Shown piece after piece: positions 1,304 to 21,154 of a DNA stretch of 64,000 nt (position 1 is the first letter of the stretch; each line of letters starts with the position of its first letter). The stretch is from positions 8,603 to 72,602 of IMG/VR virus record IMGVR_UViG_3300030098_003968. One strand, 5' to 3'. The translations under genes were made by a program, and so were the position numbers. A model generated the notes under the pieces. The model made no database searches, was not told where the DNA came from, and saw only the letters and a program-made list of their open reading frames with translations. This DNA is from a virus.

Positions 1304-1325
1304 TAGAATAAGTTATCAACAATGC

Positions 1326-1379
1326 GTGTGTAATATCTGTGGAAAAGTATGTAAAACTGTGTGTAATATGTGGAAAAGT
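1326..1379. repeat. Imperfect tandem direct repeat, 33-base period
   Basis: GTGTGTAATAT, then CT, then GTGGAAAAGT at 1326-1348 recurs at 1359-1379 as GTGTGTAATATGTGGAAAAG plus T, lacking only the CT. Each copy carries one minus-strand TTTTCCACA. The arrangement resembles short iterons. Confidence 0.75.
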
Positions 1380-1670
1380 GTTATAAATGACGTTCTAATT
1401 GCAAGAATAAATATAAGGTTGCGTTCTATTCCGTTTTTAATTAGTGTTAATAATGAGAAGGTAATCTGTGTACTATGTGTTATATAAGGAGAATAATAGG
1501 AGAGTATTTGTGTTAGTAAAGGCAGTGTAATTATGAGTGTTTAAATGTCATTTTCTTTAGTGATCTTGGCGAGCAGTTTATCACACTTTCTCCCAAATGT
1601 CAACACGCCTCGATAACATTTAGTAGTATTACAGTTTTATACACATAAGGACATAAATATCCACACTGAC

Positions 1671-1699
1671 TTGACACTTTTCCACAAAGGATTTATAAT
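1671..1699 (+). promoter_or_regulatory. Consensus sigma70 promoter (early)
   Basis: TTGACA at 1671-1676 and TATAAT at 1694-1699 are both perfect matches with an ideal 17-base spacer. The expected start, around 1706, lies about 27 bases before the ATG at 1733. Two DnaA-box-like motifs flank the -35 element. Confidence 0.85.
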
Positions 1700-1732
1700 G
1701 GATTATATACACAAACTCTCCCCTAATCTGCC

Positions 1733-1891
1733 ATGTCTTACTATCAATTAGCAGACACACAGAAAGGTTATAGAATCACGCTTAATTTGTCAGTTGATGA
1801 TGACTTTATTCCAGAGAATATTAACTGGAATAAGTTATTAGAATTAAATGATTTTGAACAGTGTGATGTATACATTGAGAACACAAATTAA
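1733..1891 (+). CDS. Small acidic early protein, 52 aa
   Basis: ATG 1733 to TAA 1889-1891 encodes 52 residues starting MSYYQLADTQKGYRITLNLS and ending CDVYIENTN. It follows a perfect sigma70 promoter, so it is probably transcribed immediately after infection. The alternating pattern (YRITLNLSV, CDVYIENT) suggests two or more beta strands with a short helix (NWNKLLELNDF) between. Phages often place small host-directed proteins behind such strong early promoters, but no family is recognised and the function is open. Confidence 0.65.
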   Translation: MSYYQLADTQKGYRITLNLSVDDDFIPENINWNKLLELNDFEQCDVYIENTN

Positions 1892-18500: not shown

Positions 18501-21154
18501 CTACAACTGGAGTATTGGTATTAACTCTTGATGATACTCATGGATTATTAACTGGAAGAAGTGTAAGACTTGTAGATGAATCCTTATACTTCACATGTGA
18601 AATGGATGGAAACAGTAGTTACCATGCATATCCAAGATCTACTGATCCTATATCTGCAAATGCAGTTTCAATTGCAGCAACTACTGCTACTACTATTACT
18701 CTTAATGTTGGTGTAACAACAACTGTATATTATGATGTTGCTGTTGGTTCTGGAACTTCTGCTACATCATACAATGCATCAACTGGTGAACTTGTACTTA
18801 ACGTTGGTATGGGTCATAGTTTGAGAAAAGGAAGAAGCATTAAGATTGCTACTGATTCACTAACCTTCAACTGTACCAAGGATGGTAATGCTACAAACCA
18901 TACTTATCCAAGAGTACCAACTGCCAACTATCGTGGTATGGAAGTTGTTGGAATTGGTACAACAGTTACAGAACTTTCAATAAGTGCTGGAATAGCAACA
19001 CTTGCGAAATATTATCAAGGTGGAGGAGTAATTCAGGAAGCATTAATAACACCTAGAGGTACTGATGCTGGTGCTGGTGGAATGACTGTTCTTACAGTAA
19101 TTGATACCAAGTCGTTTACAGTTAATAGTGGCAAATCTGAATATCATCATTTATATGCACGAGGTGGATCTGTTACTAGAAAGATGGACGTTGTAATTGA
19201 TGATCCTCTATCATATACAGATATTCCTCTTGCATATAGTTCAACTTCTCCTGGTACTGGTGGATTACAAGCAACTGCAGATATAGTTGTTAGTATGGGT
19301 TCAACCATTATTGACTTTACTATTAAGAATACTGGTTATGGTTATAATGTTGGTCATATTTTAACTTTACCAATAACAGGTGCAATAGGAATTCCAACAA
19401 CATCTAGTGCTAATTTCAATGAATTTAAATTAACAGTTCAAGAAGCAGATTATGATGTATTTACTGGATGGTCAGTAGGACAACTTCAAGTTCTTGATAA
19501 CTTCTCTGAACTATTTGATGGTGTTAGAAAATCATTCCCAATTACTTTAAATGGTGAAGTATTATCAATTCAGGCGAAGAGAGGTTCTTTAATATCCATT
19601 CAAGATACTATTCTTGTGTTTATTAATGATATTTTACAGGTTCCAGGAAAAGGATATGAATTTAATGGTGGTAGTCAGATAACCTTTACTGAAGCACCTA
19701 AAGGCCCTACAGATGATGGAATGTATGAGGGTGATACTATGAAGTTCCTATTCTATAAAGGAACTGGTGGTGGTGACGTTGTTGATGTTGATGTTATAGA
19801 AACTGTTAAGAAGGGTGATGATTTACGTTTAGAATATGATTCAAGAGTAAATGCTGATTTATTAGGAATACAAGAAGATACGAGAACAGTTTCTCAAGTT
19901 ACTTCTACAAATTCTGTTGATACAAATATCTACTTCGGGCCAGGATTAAGTGAAGATGGATCTTTAACTAGATCTGTCACTTGGACAAGACAACTTGAAG
20001 ATAAGTATGTTGATGGTAAGATTGTTGGAAAGAATCGTGAATTATATGATGCTAATATATTCCCATATGCACATCTAATTCAACCAGTAGGTGTTGGAAC
20101 TACAATTGCTTATGTTGATAATTTAAGGCCAATTTTTGATCCTCAAACTGAAAGTGAAGTAAGTACTAATTTCCAGAAGAGTGTTACTATAGTATCACAA
20201 GCAGATAAACTTGGTGCTGCAGCAACCTCATTTGTTGGTGGTGGATCTACGGTCATATCTGTTGCAATATCAACTGGTGGTAGAGGATACACATCTGCTC
20301 CTCAAGTATCAATTCAAAATCCTGTTGGATTAGGAACAACTGCTAGAGCAACAGCAACAGCATCAATTACTGCTGGTGTGGTTACTTCAATTACTATTAC
20401 TAATGATGGTGGTGTTGGGTACTCACAGACAACTCATCCACTAGTCTTGATTAGTCCACCTACATATACTAGGGAAAATAATAGTGTTGATTCCTATAAT
20501 GGTGATTCTGGAATAATTGTTGGATTTGGTACCACCAGTACAACTGCTGGACCTGAATTAATATTTGACTTATTCATTCCAGAGGATTCTAATTTAAGAG
20601 ATGCTGCAATGACTGGAACAGCAGTAACTCAATGTGGTATAACTACTGCAGATTATTTCACTGTTTTCAACTCTAATGTTGGAGTTGCTGATACGGGTGC
20701 AGGTATCGGTGTAACACCATTTACATCAAAATCAATAGATGACCGTGTAATTGGATTCTCTACTCAATTTGTTGATGCTATCTTCCAAGTTGGTAGTGCT
20801 GATATTATTGAACGACATGTATTGGGAATAGGTACTACATCTGTTACTAGAATACATACATCAGTTCTAACGGGTATTGGTACTGAAAACTGGGATTCTG
20901 GTGGAATTACAATGGATTCTACATCATTAACATTAGATAATGAAGCAAGTGGTAACGTTTATGCAGGTACAATTTCTACGACTACTAATGGTCAGGCTTA
21001 CTTCGGTAATTATAGTTGGGGTAAGATTGTATTAGGTCCAAGGATTGCTGCTAATTCATATACTTATTATGGAGATCAAGGGTTTACTGGTATTTCAACT
21101 GGTGATATGATATTCAGAAGACCTAAATTGAGAACAGTTGGTTATGCTACTTAA
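6536..21154 (+). CDS. Giant repeat-rich baseplate-associated protein with YHYH domain, 4872 aa
   Basis: This single frame spans 14.6 kb. The N-terminal 300 residues (MTLKKVQLNKIVKNQLPEYV and a later helical part) look like a wedge-attachment domain, and the slot after gene 6 is that of T4 gene 7 (about 1030 aa). It is therefore probably the gp7 counterpart, hugely expanded. Visible modules: many N-x-G-x-G-Y beta units; a YHYH-type domain around residues 1255-1360 with YDGHPIYGPYGY at 1264-1275; four THTF-type repeats at 3807-3895; four FTC...YPR repeats at about 3720-4125. It has no signal peptide or membrane segment. Glycine, threonine and isoleucine dominate, as in extended beta fibres. It is likely a baseplate extension or fibre; exact homology to gp7 is inferred from position. 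Confidence 0.8.
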   Translation: MTLKKVQLNKIVKNQLPEYVREDFPLVGEFLSAYYKGQEYQGAPIDLVNNIDSYIKLSECGNIIKSTTLINRVEETATDILVDNTDGFPDNNGLIKIGDEIISYDSKTNVKFVDCTRGFSGITSFTNPSEPEDLIFSTSTAAPHDEDVVVENLSVLFLEEFLRKTKNQLLYGIQKDLHENLNQSTFIKHSKDFYSTRGTDESFKILFGALFNEKAEVIRPIDRVVSASNANFRKTRDIIVESVLGDPIDLINKTLFQDTYENISKAYAPVSHVESINVGINTNIFYKISLDTSWNQHDGSTELLYGEFSSHAKSIIVGDVGIGQTYIDVDSTLGFPNSGTLSFVYANGESGIATYAYKTLNQFLDINPTSIASSITDRTFIDQDTYAYSAGSGTTDGIRVKIRSVLNNLQIPSDTRFYNAGSRIKIKSLGHIGTSFNQNNWIFNTIQNYDIRELKLVDQVNSTYKLITEDPNIFRIGDNVRLYDKNDDLLVNQYEVRDCYDSRTILIRGEGIPSDTTTILNVRRDFSRVNSDIHSDLNRLIANIQNVYVGGESILVASNSLPAHGGLKLNPRDQKVTISGKYNDEVEEITLTTGIDHNFYTGDAVYYTPEKGSATIVDWQGNSIYQEWIESQLFDEGLYFVKRIDDNIVKLAKSRPNIYNNIFVKVNASGGDDIEINNNTIEKYDFHEKKIQPQKLLRKISKPVQDGKVHETPIGYTGILIDGVEVLNYKSRDTVYAGQLDSIEVMKGGENYDVINPPILTINDSVGSGATGYAAVRGSFQEIRILDKGFDFIDVPIVKITGGNGEGATAEAKIRTEPHEVTFDATGIATAIQIGIDTSIIGFTTYHKFRTGERVEYNTFGKKALAGLNTGAVYYVGEVDNKNIKLYTSFDGAIAGVGTTGFTDYGEGYHSIKSLKGKAVVGTIQVTNPGTGYENKQRTLQPVGVDTALNIIHLPDHDYRDQEIVQYSSDGTAIDGLSTSLDYYVKVIDKDSFKLANVGVGTTVKDFYYRTEQWANFRSTGVGTHSFNYPPITVTVTGTVGINSIEGDTFQCIAQPIVRGEITSIHLTENGVGYGASEVLNFERNPDVTLNQGRGAYLSPVVHNGSIVDVSVSLGGTDYNAPPNIVVSGLGTGAELVPEMDALGNIVSIKVNKGGIGYGVSTTTVRAEVSGKKVLFRPKVQEWRVNNFKRNFGNLLNDDIFIDRPTNREFELQCSYAYAPRSLRKILYTSGSDGDIIYGKKDLTLKNNQEISQDKHSPIIGWAYDGHPIYGPYGYTTRTGGTITQMKSGYIENAGVKVNRPPTTVFPEEFFVEDFEWSYSTDDGILDENNGRFCVTPEYPNGTYAYFATFEADVEGTGPFINYKRPAFPYLIGKNFNAAPEKFNYERLSNQDDINLNDTDWIRNTFPYALDKDNSGYDYVQESYTFSTQDSIIKSVEKSGIDAVGIVTGGTKYQVGDKVVFEEDTEHNFAAAARVLKVAGPGISTISINPVLLDDVEFYPSGRKGEFIGIATTSHGVINNTVLSISGLSTTSSKLEGSYNVGINTNQLSLSVAIGTEGVTGIVTYLSVKGNLQYPAIKENDLLRLSGILTTGNFGDEEVKVLNVDRLNSRIRVLRDLKAQTGLSHTATTVIKDIPRKFTFKTGITTTYSPKVNTEYYFYPGESVGLGTATPIGIAGTVVGSGNTITFENPGAGIATIFVPAQTIYLPNHSLQTGDEVTYHTNTGTSIGIVTAANNVAVGTDIALNLYPSLFVARIDRDHIGVSSVKVGMGSTGMFVGGATTTAHTGLVYFSGVGTGVYHSFKTKSYNSDIIKGSIEQNRVNVSLAGTHGLNHNEEVNVTVNPRNTGITTIQYDKPNRKVITRGLGFTASGVTTTTSLTGTPDSIEIINHGLTTGQKVIHKSATPAGGLVHEKEYYVYVINRNRIKLCLDKYETGKTIPGFVGLTTANVGTLCEINPTLNFYRDSNITFDLSDSSLSYTRGSEQYPAFELEFYRDASYTDKYDTNGTSRTFDINRTGTVGVTADAKVTLAVNKNTPDVFYYKLSPVDQKENPQIYKDLVIDDVVDGYNQIIIKESDYAGRFNILLESENTFTYNLGKYPESESYSGSTSQLEYDTNSTSAYGRITDVQIVSTGSGYPEVPGITTVTSDTGSGAILEATSKTIGRVNKSVIENIGFDYPTDKTLRPEVAFPQILKIEALSGFESIGVTSLGRGYNTAPSLVVIDNRTKKQITDVDLKYHLNVSSASVEILENTNSLFNTTPTILPVGNPNGIRMKDFSYNANTQVVTATYKNTVSRVEDFVLEVGDRIMVENVAVGLGSTGSGYNSKNYDYNLFTITGVSTNLGSYPTITYSMADFLDKDVNELPGRFVSVNSGAIVTPEKYFPQFSSTIKSNQFNPEEGVTNGTAVGSVFKWDPETGELVVESNREFEVGTVIESKETNSKGKIVSKLSTDSIYDLDYYSVVENGWEYRTGFLNDELQRIHDNEYYQNFSYAIKSRVTFDDWKDVVSSLNHAAGFKKFSDLQLESQPDDPNQLEVEVASLTDVVVDFHGYESLHTVETFDLATENYLVGDDGIFSDEINFENRILTDYAQSVGNRVLQVDDISGDFDDNARTSRYADVFRQSTKDGRSQKIVCYVRDRLYGGERQMMIVNALHDIDRGFSMINQYGDVSTVEDLGSFDYVYEGGETILRYFPTKFEVNNYNIRTFSYNLDKNVLGIETSVASIGSTTIGISTDFIGSLVSIASTNVEIAGGAADEIYRFVGVGTNISGTRSAKVLVTAETDTGRVEYDEVSLICDGTNVSWQEFGQLTIHSYLDPYSSAGNIGTFYSHMNGQDIVLKYTPDAGFTTTRVNAIAVAFSTEGYKNESQTDYEFQYGSMQAQSKFMEAAADPDAVGIASYSDEYDAAYFIVQASDMATNSHCLTEGIIIDDYAENGNDTVYMTEYGEIHVGAAFTDLGTIDGRRGSGDRTEITYRPASGRDIDVKIFMNTLRVEENTNVSPTERETGGEILKEFNNATIETNGATYEGTETTVKKRFNLQYKNEDIFRRNFDGSSDVTVNVSNNTLEIPNHFFVTGEEIKYSVKTGFTTDAISIANTSFAGIGSTTRMPSSVFVIKQSENIIKLARSAEDALKSNPVELDITSVGIGTSHSLTSTNQNQKVMMLIDNMIQSPIAGTSVTTTLADSAALAQDVIKFTGISSFAGADYIQVGSGNTIECMKILSVGIGSTNQIKVRRGWLGTTEAGFSTGALVQKIRGHYNIVDNEIHFIEPPHGAQPFGTSTNPPDQRDYLGITTASSFQGRVFMRSGVKDTTEETYTSNYLYDDISNRFTGYDKEFPLTVDKQSVTGVSTNNAIIIINGVFQGPGANNNYTMSEVGGGTSISFTGSASSVGFDPNNANIPVGGVIVSVSSTDGFGYQPLVSAGGTVIVSSAGTISNITIGNTGSGYRVGLQTVNVAIQTASNLDAQSFLDRSSFIGIGTAQIVDGNITGIAITNPGIIYTPRDITNAGYSSVTGITTITTTKPHGLVVGDDIRISGLAFTCEYAPSMSISTASFHAATGIMTVSVGLNTVGVTTFSYDNVVGVGTVTLVEPHKIAHATGVGRSFTLAGLNVGLARSGVSYGSTTWPNLSSSFYEETATGDTFTIVSIPSPTEIKFTAGISTLTHTYTSGGHLGFGHKMKVGDTAILTGLAFTGHSGLTTDYYPHGKDAAYDTSVEITNDGTAYTVTNASYNPTTGVLTLTVPAHGFSNGDKIRLVDKSLTFTCAKNDHKTQHEYPRATDPVSGEWLTISNKTTNTFRVNVLTNAPSSNTSTHTFVSAKADGLIHQSPTITVNVGSAGENDQYTHTFVSAATSAIVSGGNYTHNFAYAIKGGVRSGGNYLHTFASAVDGGVTATGVGTMTPTDASYNPTTGDLTLTIANHGLNTGNTVGIATSAITFTCYMDQHNTEHAYPRANDPIADDSNIAITGFTTNTFTINVGTTPIVTHNVTNAVYTPTTGVLVLTLDDTHGLLTGRSVRLVDESLYFTCEMDGNSSYHAYPRSTDPISANAVSIAATTATTITLNVGVTTTVYYDVAVGSGTSATSYNASTGELVLNVGMGHSLRKGRSIKIATDSLTFNCTKDGNATNHTYPRVPTANYRGMEVVGIGTTVTELSISAGIATLAKYYQGGGVIQEALITPRGTDAGAGGMTVLTVIDTKSFTVNSGKSEYHHLYARGGSVTRKMDVVIDDPLSYTDIPLAYSSTSPGTGGLQATADIVVSMGSTIIDFTIKNTGYGYNVGHILTLPITGAIGIPTTSSANFNEFKLTVQEADYDVFTGWSVGQLQVLDNFSELFDGVRKSFPITLNGEVLSIQAKRGSLISIQDTILVFINDILQVPGKGYEFNGGSQITFTEAPKGPTDDGMYEGDTMKFLFYKGTGGGDVVDVDVIETVKKGDDLRLEYDSRVNADLLGIQEDTRTVSQVTSTNSVDTNIYFGPGLSEDGSLTRSVTWTRQLEDKYVDGKIVGKNRELYDANIFPYAHLIQPVGVGTTIAYVDNLRPIFDPQTESEVSTNFQKSVTIVSQADKLGAAATSFVGGGSTVISVAISTGGRGYTSAPQVSIQNPVGLGTTARATATASITAGVVTSITITNDGGVGYSQTTHPLVLISPPTYTRENNSVDSYNGDSGIIVGFGTTSTTAGPELIFDLFIPEDSNLRDAAMTGTAVTQCGITTADYFTVFNSNVGVADTGAGIGVTPFTSKSIDDRVIGFSTQFVDAIFQVGSADIIERHVLGIGTTSVTRIHTSVLTGIGTENWDSGGITMDSTSLTLDNEASGNVYAGTISTTTNGQAYFGNYSWGKIVLGPRIAANSYTYYGDQGFTGISTGDMIFRRPKLRTVGYAT
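10304..10620 (+). other. YHYH-type domain inside the giant protein
   Basis: Residues about 1257-1361 contain GWAYDGHPIYGPYGY, then GRFCVTPEYPNGTYAYFATF, then RPAFPYLIG just after. This arrangement is typical of the YHYH domain (PF14240 as I recall), found in secreted bacterial proteins and marine phage structural proteins. Its biochemical role is not established. Here it is embedded between beta-repeat regions. Confidence 0.7.
17696..18930 (+). repeat. Tandem protein repeats with Cys and YPR motif in the giant protein
   Basis: Four units of about 75-90 residues begin near residues 3721, 3898, 3982 and 4076. Each has (S/V)Y(N/T)xxTG, an HG or GHS turn, and F(T/N)C with cysteines at 3759, 3934, 4021 and 4113, then a (H)xYPR motif. 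The first three continue xxDP. Degenerate copies lie upstream (LAFTCEY near residue 3523). Between units 1 and 2 sit four THTFVSA-like repeats. Confidence 0.8.

Follow-up and report, generated by a model that had tools for sequence, protein, structure and literature searches.

Do T4-like cyanophages make use of DnaA, the initiator of their hosts, and if so, for what? The question is raised by a cluster of DnaA-box-like words in an early intergenic region of a viral contig, for which an earlier note had proposed three functions: a replication origin, a decoy for host DnaA or a DnaA-sensitive promoter switch. The contig is 87,368 bases long and carries the T4-like genes gp25, gp6, terminase, sheath, gp20 portal, gp23 capsid and UvsW; the window, by which we mean the whole stretch of DNA analysed (64,000 bases), is part of it. 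How T4-like cyanophages start replication is little known, and a passage of a review (PMC2984593) mentions only a single theta origin predicted for Syn9.

Clustering of DnaA boxes in the window

The cluster occupies the gap between ORF 1112-1303 and ORF 1733-1891. Its elements, with their state in the closest relative (L010) and a more distant one (L012), are as follows:

1313 to 1321, plus strand: one-mismatch relative TTATCAACA
1338 to 1346, minus strand: predicted DnaA box TTTTCCACA, exact, left group; kept in L010
1358 to 1366, minus strand: one-mismatch relative TTACACACA
1369 to 1377, minus strand: predicted DnaA box TTTTCCACA, exact, left group; kept in L010 and L012
1381 to 1430, no strand assigned: AT-rich stretch, candidate melting region; aligned and conserved between the window, L010 and L012
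1637 to 1645, plus strand: DnaA-box-like TTATACACA, exact; its L010 counterpart is TTATTCACA
1657 to 1665, plus strand: one-mismatch relative ATATCCACA; not conserved in L010
1678 to 1686, plus strand: predicted DnaA box TTTTCCACA, exact; within the -35/-10 spacer of a rightward promoter
1733 to 1891, plus strand: small ORF of 52 aa, a mechanical ORF call and putative target of the rightward promoter

Exact TTTTCCACA occurs in the window only at 1338 (minus), 1369 (minus) and 1678 (plus), and the three copies span 349 bases. This number is unremarkable for the window (1.16 expected; at least three in 15 of 100 shuffles), but the clustering is real and far above chance: two or more exact copies within 401 bases were seen in none of 300 dinucleotide shuffles, and relaxed matches reached nine per 401 bases against a shuffle maximum of six. 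The earlier note had counted three exact TTTTCCACA, one exact TTATACACA and three one-mismatch relatives; the exact words stand, whereas the relatives number five, at 1313, 1358, 1657, 1703 and 1705. Its spacings are borne out, with 20 and 21 bases separating the words at 1637, 1657 and 1678, and 31 bases, about three helical turns, separating the left boxes at 1338 and 1369. Two findings that it had named as fatal to the cluster, an equal frequency of the motif elsewhere and its absence from the same place in close relatives, were not obtained: the full 87,368-base contig holds no fourth exact TTTTCCACA, and relatives both near and distant have the motif at the equivalent position. L010 has both minus-strand boxes intact and not the right-hand plus-strand ones, and L012 retains the equivalent of box 1678.

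A conserved noncoding core accompanies the boxes

The roughly 400 bases that hold the cluster represent one example of a control element conserved in the Kyanoviridae (T4-like cyanophages). Its order is boxes, an AT-rich stretch, a noncoding core that is itself conserved and can be read as a leftward sigma-70 promoter, and finally rightward promoters. BLAST of the gap returned short unannotated matches in other cyanophages. The core and the promoters beside it lie in the window as follows:

1541 to 1608, minus strand: conserved noncoding core, defined by alignment; plus-strand consensus TAAATGT..TTGTGATCTTAGC..GC...TATCAC....AAATGTCAA
1575 to 1603, minus strand: leftward sigma-70-type promoter TTGACA-17-TAAACT, with TG before the -10 (extended -10), inside the core
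1671 to 1699, plus strand: rightward sigma-70 promoter TTGACA-17-TATAAT, 12 of 12, with box 1678 in its spacer

A form of the core shorter by about 12 bases is found in isolates such as Syn9, Syn33, Syn19, S-SM1 and S-SSM5. In each of nine complete genomes, profile searches placed the core at a single site. The match in P-SSM4 was weak (E 0.0085), and none was found in the parts searched of P-SSM2 (40-80 kb) or P-HM1 (40-70 kb). Among well-studied isolates the element lies at 52.6 kb in Syn9, 19.3 kb in S-PM2 and 46.7 kb in Syn33; in S-SM2 and P-TIM68, as in the window, the core is upstream of the gp25/gp6 baseplate genes.

Many IMG/VR contigs stop within about 100 bases of the core (for example L043, L082 and L078), and in 9 of 44 core loci the core lies no more than 90 bases from the left end of the contig, probably because assembly fails where a conserved core is flanked by variable sequence.

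The boxes are tied to this core. Across the nine complete genomes, 19 of 39 exact TTTTCCACA copies lie within 350 bases of it, where 0.075 would be expected, and at least one exact box falls within that distance in 12 of the 18 core-bearing isolates (window excluded); S-RSM4, Bellamy, S-SSM7, P-RSM4, P-SSM4 and S-SCSM2R, the other 6 of 18, have none there. Some records were gathered through similarity to the window core, and the Syn9-type profile was seeded by seven isolates chosen for having boxes; counts were repeated with box-free trimmed profiles. The trimmed profiles found the core in 57 of 102 records, of which 56, nonredundant, were kept for counting 9-mers. Enrichment over the 225 bases to the left of the core was highest, among all 9-mers, for TTTTCCACA, which occurred 57 times, in 27 of the 56 records (216-fold); the earlier, untrimmed profiles had given the same ranking, with 50 copies in 24 of 53 records. 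The earlier set began as 167 core records, from which 26 unanchorable and 20 redundant ones were dropped to leave 121; 53 of these were not selected for boxes, and 11 of the 53 are the window and isolates.

The association also holds in the other direction. Among the 120 matches listed for contigs chosen solely by a convergent box pair, 56 carried the core by trimmed profiles, 54 of these with the pair within 500 bases; among the 120 listed for a reversed-motif control, none carried it. Other viral contigs among the matches listed have a convergent TTTTCCACA pair and no core. The principal group of boxes sits leftward of the core at a distance of some 50 to 250 bases, and AT content across records is 0.68-0.72 at -200 to -40, compared with a mean of 0.63. 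A second AT-rich word, approximately TATATGTGTGTTTTAT, also occurs left of the core; TATGTGTGTT, with up to two mismatches, is present there in 69 of 109 records compared with 7% of background.

Could the core be a structured noncoding RNA or a tRNA, with the boxes incidental? It is noncoding and conserved, and annotated tRNAs adjoin it in S-PM2, where tRNA-Asn and tRNA-Leu genes share bases with both the box cluster and the core edge (19177-19333, locus L656). But the core has no Rfam match, no tRNA was found in 114 core records, and RNAalifold gave no consensus structure on either strand of 98 core records. We therefore rejected a structured RNA, a tRNA or an Rfam family at the core, and this reading is largely excluded.

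The box spacings follow the helical repeat

Spacings between boxes were counted up to 80 bases. Adjacent boxes on the left of the core had 44 direct spacings, every one of them 11-12, 20-22, 31-33 or 42 bases, and 62 convergent spacings, every one of them 12-14, 21-25 or 31-35 bases. Records not chosen for their boxes gave 12 of 13 direct spacings in helical register, the exception being 16 bases; in contigs without the core, the convergent spacings were broader. As related records are not independent, we attach no probability to the phasing. The sequences indicate that the spacings of TTTTCCACA boxes follow the helical repeat, which would set them on one face of the helix.

With the phasing, a chance cluster of AT-rich words, which the copy number in the window alone would allow, becomes a negligible prospect: it is refuted by the clustering, the association of boxes and core, the phasing and the top rank of the 9-mer. 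The decoy proposal, in which boxes would titrate host DnaA and so stop replication of the host chromosome, fares little better. The number of decoy sites would presumably rise as the phage replicates, but each genome has few boxes, and these are helically phased and tied to a single position next to a promoter. A decoy would need no such fixed position, and with so few copies we regard this as the least likely of the three proposed functions and very improbable.

Predicted promoters on both sides

A minus-strand promoter score of at least 10 was obtained at the core in 81% of 53 records, compared with 1.3% of 464 background windows; Syn9-type cores scored lower, from 6 to 9. On the right is a strong rightward promoter, which in the window matches the consensus at all 12 positions and holds box 1678 in its spacer. 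L012 and L203 likewise have a box in the promoter spacer, an arrangement lost in L010. Two more perfect sigma-70 promoters (12 of 12) occur in the window at 1926-1954 and 2453-2481, no more than 0.8 kb from the first. We rejected the idea that boxes generally lie inside promoter spacers, as such boxes make up 3 of 84 right-side boxes (31 records).

These promoters bear on the proposal of a transcriptional switch, in which host DnaA would act as a transcription factor on divergent promoters and no replication would start here; such a switch could, for example, sense the cell-cycle state of the host or the level of ATP-DnaA to time early genes. Strong promoters on both sides, the box in the promoter spacer of the window, L012 and L203, and the enrichment near the core of a late-promoter-like word, TATAAATA, all suit a switch. 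Against it, only the 3 boxes just mentioned lie in a spacer, and the main box group is displaced to the left of the core and does not lie over a promoter. We consider a switch possible, if somewhat unlikely.

Host DnaA as the predicted reader of the boxes

According to passages of one paper (PMC4674748), TTTTCCACA is the species-specific DnaA box of cyanobacteria; the same paper tests DnaA binding in Cyanothece. Among 32 dnaN loci from host genomes, 2 had no start and 6 had a short upstream region, leaving 24 (8 low GC and 16 high GC). In the WH7803 host family, the 600 bases upstream of dnaN contain TTTTCCACA in 7 of the 8 low-GC genomes, often together with TAGTAG repeats, but the exact word is found by dnaN in only 2 of 16 high-GC genomes. 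In WH7803 and RCC307 the boxes near dnaN all carry one mismatch. Away from dnaN, host chromosomes carry TTTTCCACA pairs (L620 at about 1819368 in WH7803; L624 at about 474410 in RCC307), which are possible DnaA titration or regulatory sites.

The published box, the boxes by dnaN in low-GC hosts, the top-ranking 9-mer at a conserved place and the phasing together make the identification of these words as DnaA boxes well supported. A DnaA encoded by the phages was rejected: a search of 21 phage records found no DnaA C-terminal domain, and any DnaA reading the boxes would have to come from the host. Binding of host DnaA to the cluster is thus well supported by inference, and some form of regulatory role for DnaA at the site is likely. 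A different protein of host or phage might instead bind TTTTCCACA in a conserved control region, and it is in favour of this that some box-less phages fill the same slot with an unrelated palindrome, as described below. We judge it improbable, however, as the winner among all 9-mers is exactly the published cyanobacterial DnaA box.

A predicted promoter-linked origin

What would DnaA do here? We hold with moderate confidence, at about even chances, that the element is the primary (early) replication origin, promoter-linked and recruiting host DnaA. Host DnaA would bind the phased TTTTCCACA boxes, and host RNA polymerase would start at the leftward core promoter, sending a transcript across both the AT-rich stretch and the boxes. 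DnaA, oligomerised on the phased boxes, might then help to open the DNA or hold it open, or might recruit the host helicase, after which the phage's T4-type replisome would take over, with later replication driven by recombination as in T4. The boxes, their phasing, the conserved core, the promoter-like sequences and the single site per genome are seen in the sequence itself; DnaA binding, transcription through the boxes, melting and origin firing are what we infer.

Of the functions put forward by the earlier note, an origin is the predicted best fit because the site is single in each genome, noncoding, AT-rich and promoter-linked; the switch stays possible and the decoy comes last. The single theta origin predicted for Syn9 (PMC2984593) also counts in favour of an origin. 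The element has a cluster of species-typical DnaA boxes in helical register, as at an oriC, and, judged by sequence, a promoter aimed through the candidate origin, as at promoter-primed origins of the T4 type. Our confidence goes no further because of three observations. The GC-skew check that the note had proposed lends the origin no support: there is no sign change at the site, and fourfold-degenerate sites show no strand switch in 7 genomes, although gene strand and recombination-driven replication could mask one. The DnaA-trio (TAGTAG) is not enriched near the core, yet it is found upstream of dnaN in many host genomes. Finally, a third of core isolates have no exact boxes; DnaA is therefore not strictly required across the family. 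The phages also carry replication genes of their own, for example a gp59 helicase loader, and the lower promoter scores of Syn9-type cores and the scarcity of exact boxes by dnaN in high-GC hosts likewise weigh against the reading.

Like a cyanobacterial oriC beside dnaN, the element has the same 9-mer, TTTTCCACA, clustered in noncoding, AT-rich DNA; unlike it, the element has no DnaA-trio enrichment and no adjacent dnaN, and has instead a conserved promoter core and a T4-type replisome. T4 oriE and oriF are promoter-primed R-loop origins, and T4 has several origins. Shared with these are a T4-like phage, noncoding DNA and a host-polymerase promoter directed through an AT-rich stretch, but here each genome examined has a single conserved site, and T4 origins are not known to use DnaA. 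P1 oriR and pSC101 are origins that combine host DnaA boxes with iterons and their own Rep protein; the predicted likeness is a mobile genome recruiting host DnaA through boxes at its origin, and the difference is that the phage here is lytic and T4-like and has no known Rep at the site. The E. coli dnaA and mioC promoters are regulated by DnaA and resemble the element in having a DnaA box in or near sigma-70 promoters, whereas the phage boxes are mostly outside promoters and helically phased.

If true, the prediction would couple infection by highly abundant marine viruses to the host cell-cycle initiator; the element suggests that these viruses borrow that initiator to start or time their own replication. 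No T4-like phage is known to hijack host DnaA, and these would be the first. In the open-licence literature we found no report of DnaA boxes at a cyanomyovirus origin, and DnaA does not occur in PMC5082946 or PMC5931967. As the conserved, DnaA-marked site has exact coordinates in studied isolates, the origin question is directly testable.

A palindrome occupies the box slot in some phages

In core records without boxes, the most enriched words are TATTGAGAA and ATTGAGAAT; exact ATTGAGAAT occurs in 8 of 21 box-less records and in 0 of 27 with boxes. In L036, L039, L022, L061 and S-RSM4 (L405-L414), the palindrome TTCTCAATA-N8-10-TATTGAGAA stands in the DnaA-box slot left of the core. Among the 120 contigs listed from a scan for TTCTCAATA-N4-12-TATTGAGAA, 22 had the core, 15 of these with the palindrome within 500 bases. 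In all 22, the 350 bases on either side of the core are free of exact DnaA boxes. The trimmed profiles recovered the core in 17 of the 120 palindrome contigs listed. Other box-less phages have neither boxes nor palindrome.

A second palindrome in the same slot means that the slot can serve more than one protein, and the pattern suggests a binding cassette exchangeable at one position. We tentatively propose, as a minority possibility, that T4-like cyanophages fire from one modular promoter-side origin, whose cassette would be helically phased host-DnaA boxes in many lineages and, in others, a palindrome read by a different initiator. If so, this would be initiator swapping at a fixed origin.

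The Fur consensus spans 19 bases, with half-sites oriented opposite to those of this palindrome. Records with at least 14 matches to the consensus are somewhat commoner among the box-less ones (7 of 21) than among those with boxes (4 of 26) or in 426 background windows (4%). A Fur-box reading of TTCTCAATA..TATTGAGAA was tried and not adopted, given the orientation of the half-sites. Further copies of the palindrome often lie about 600-700 bases away.
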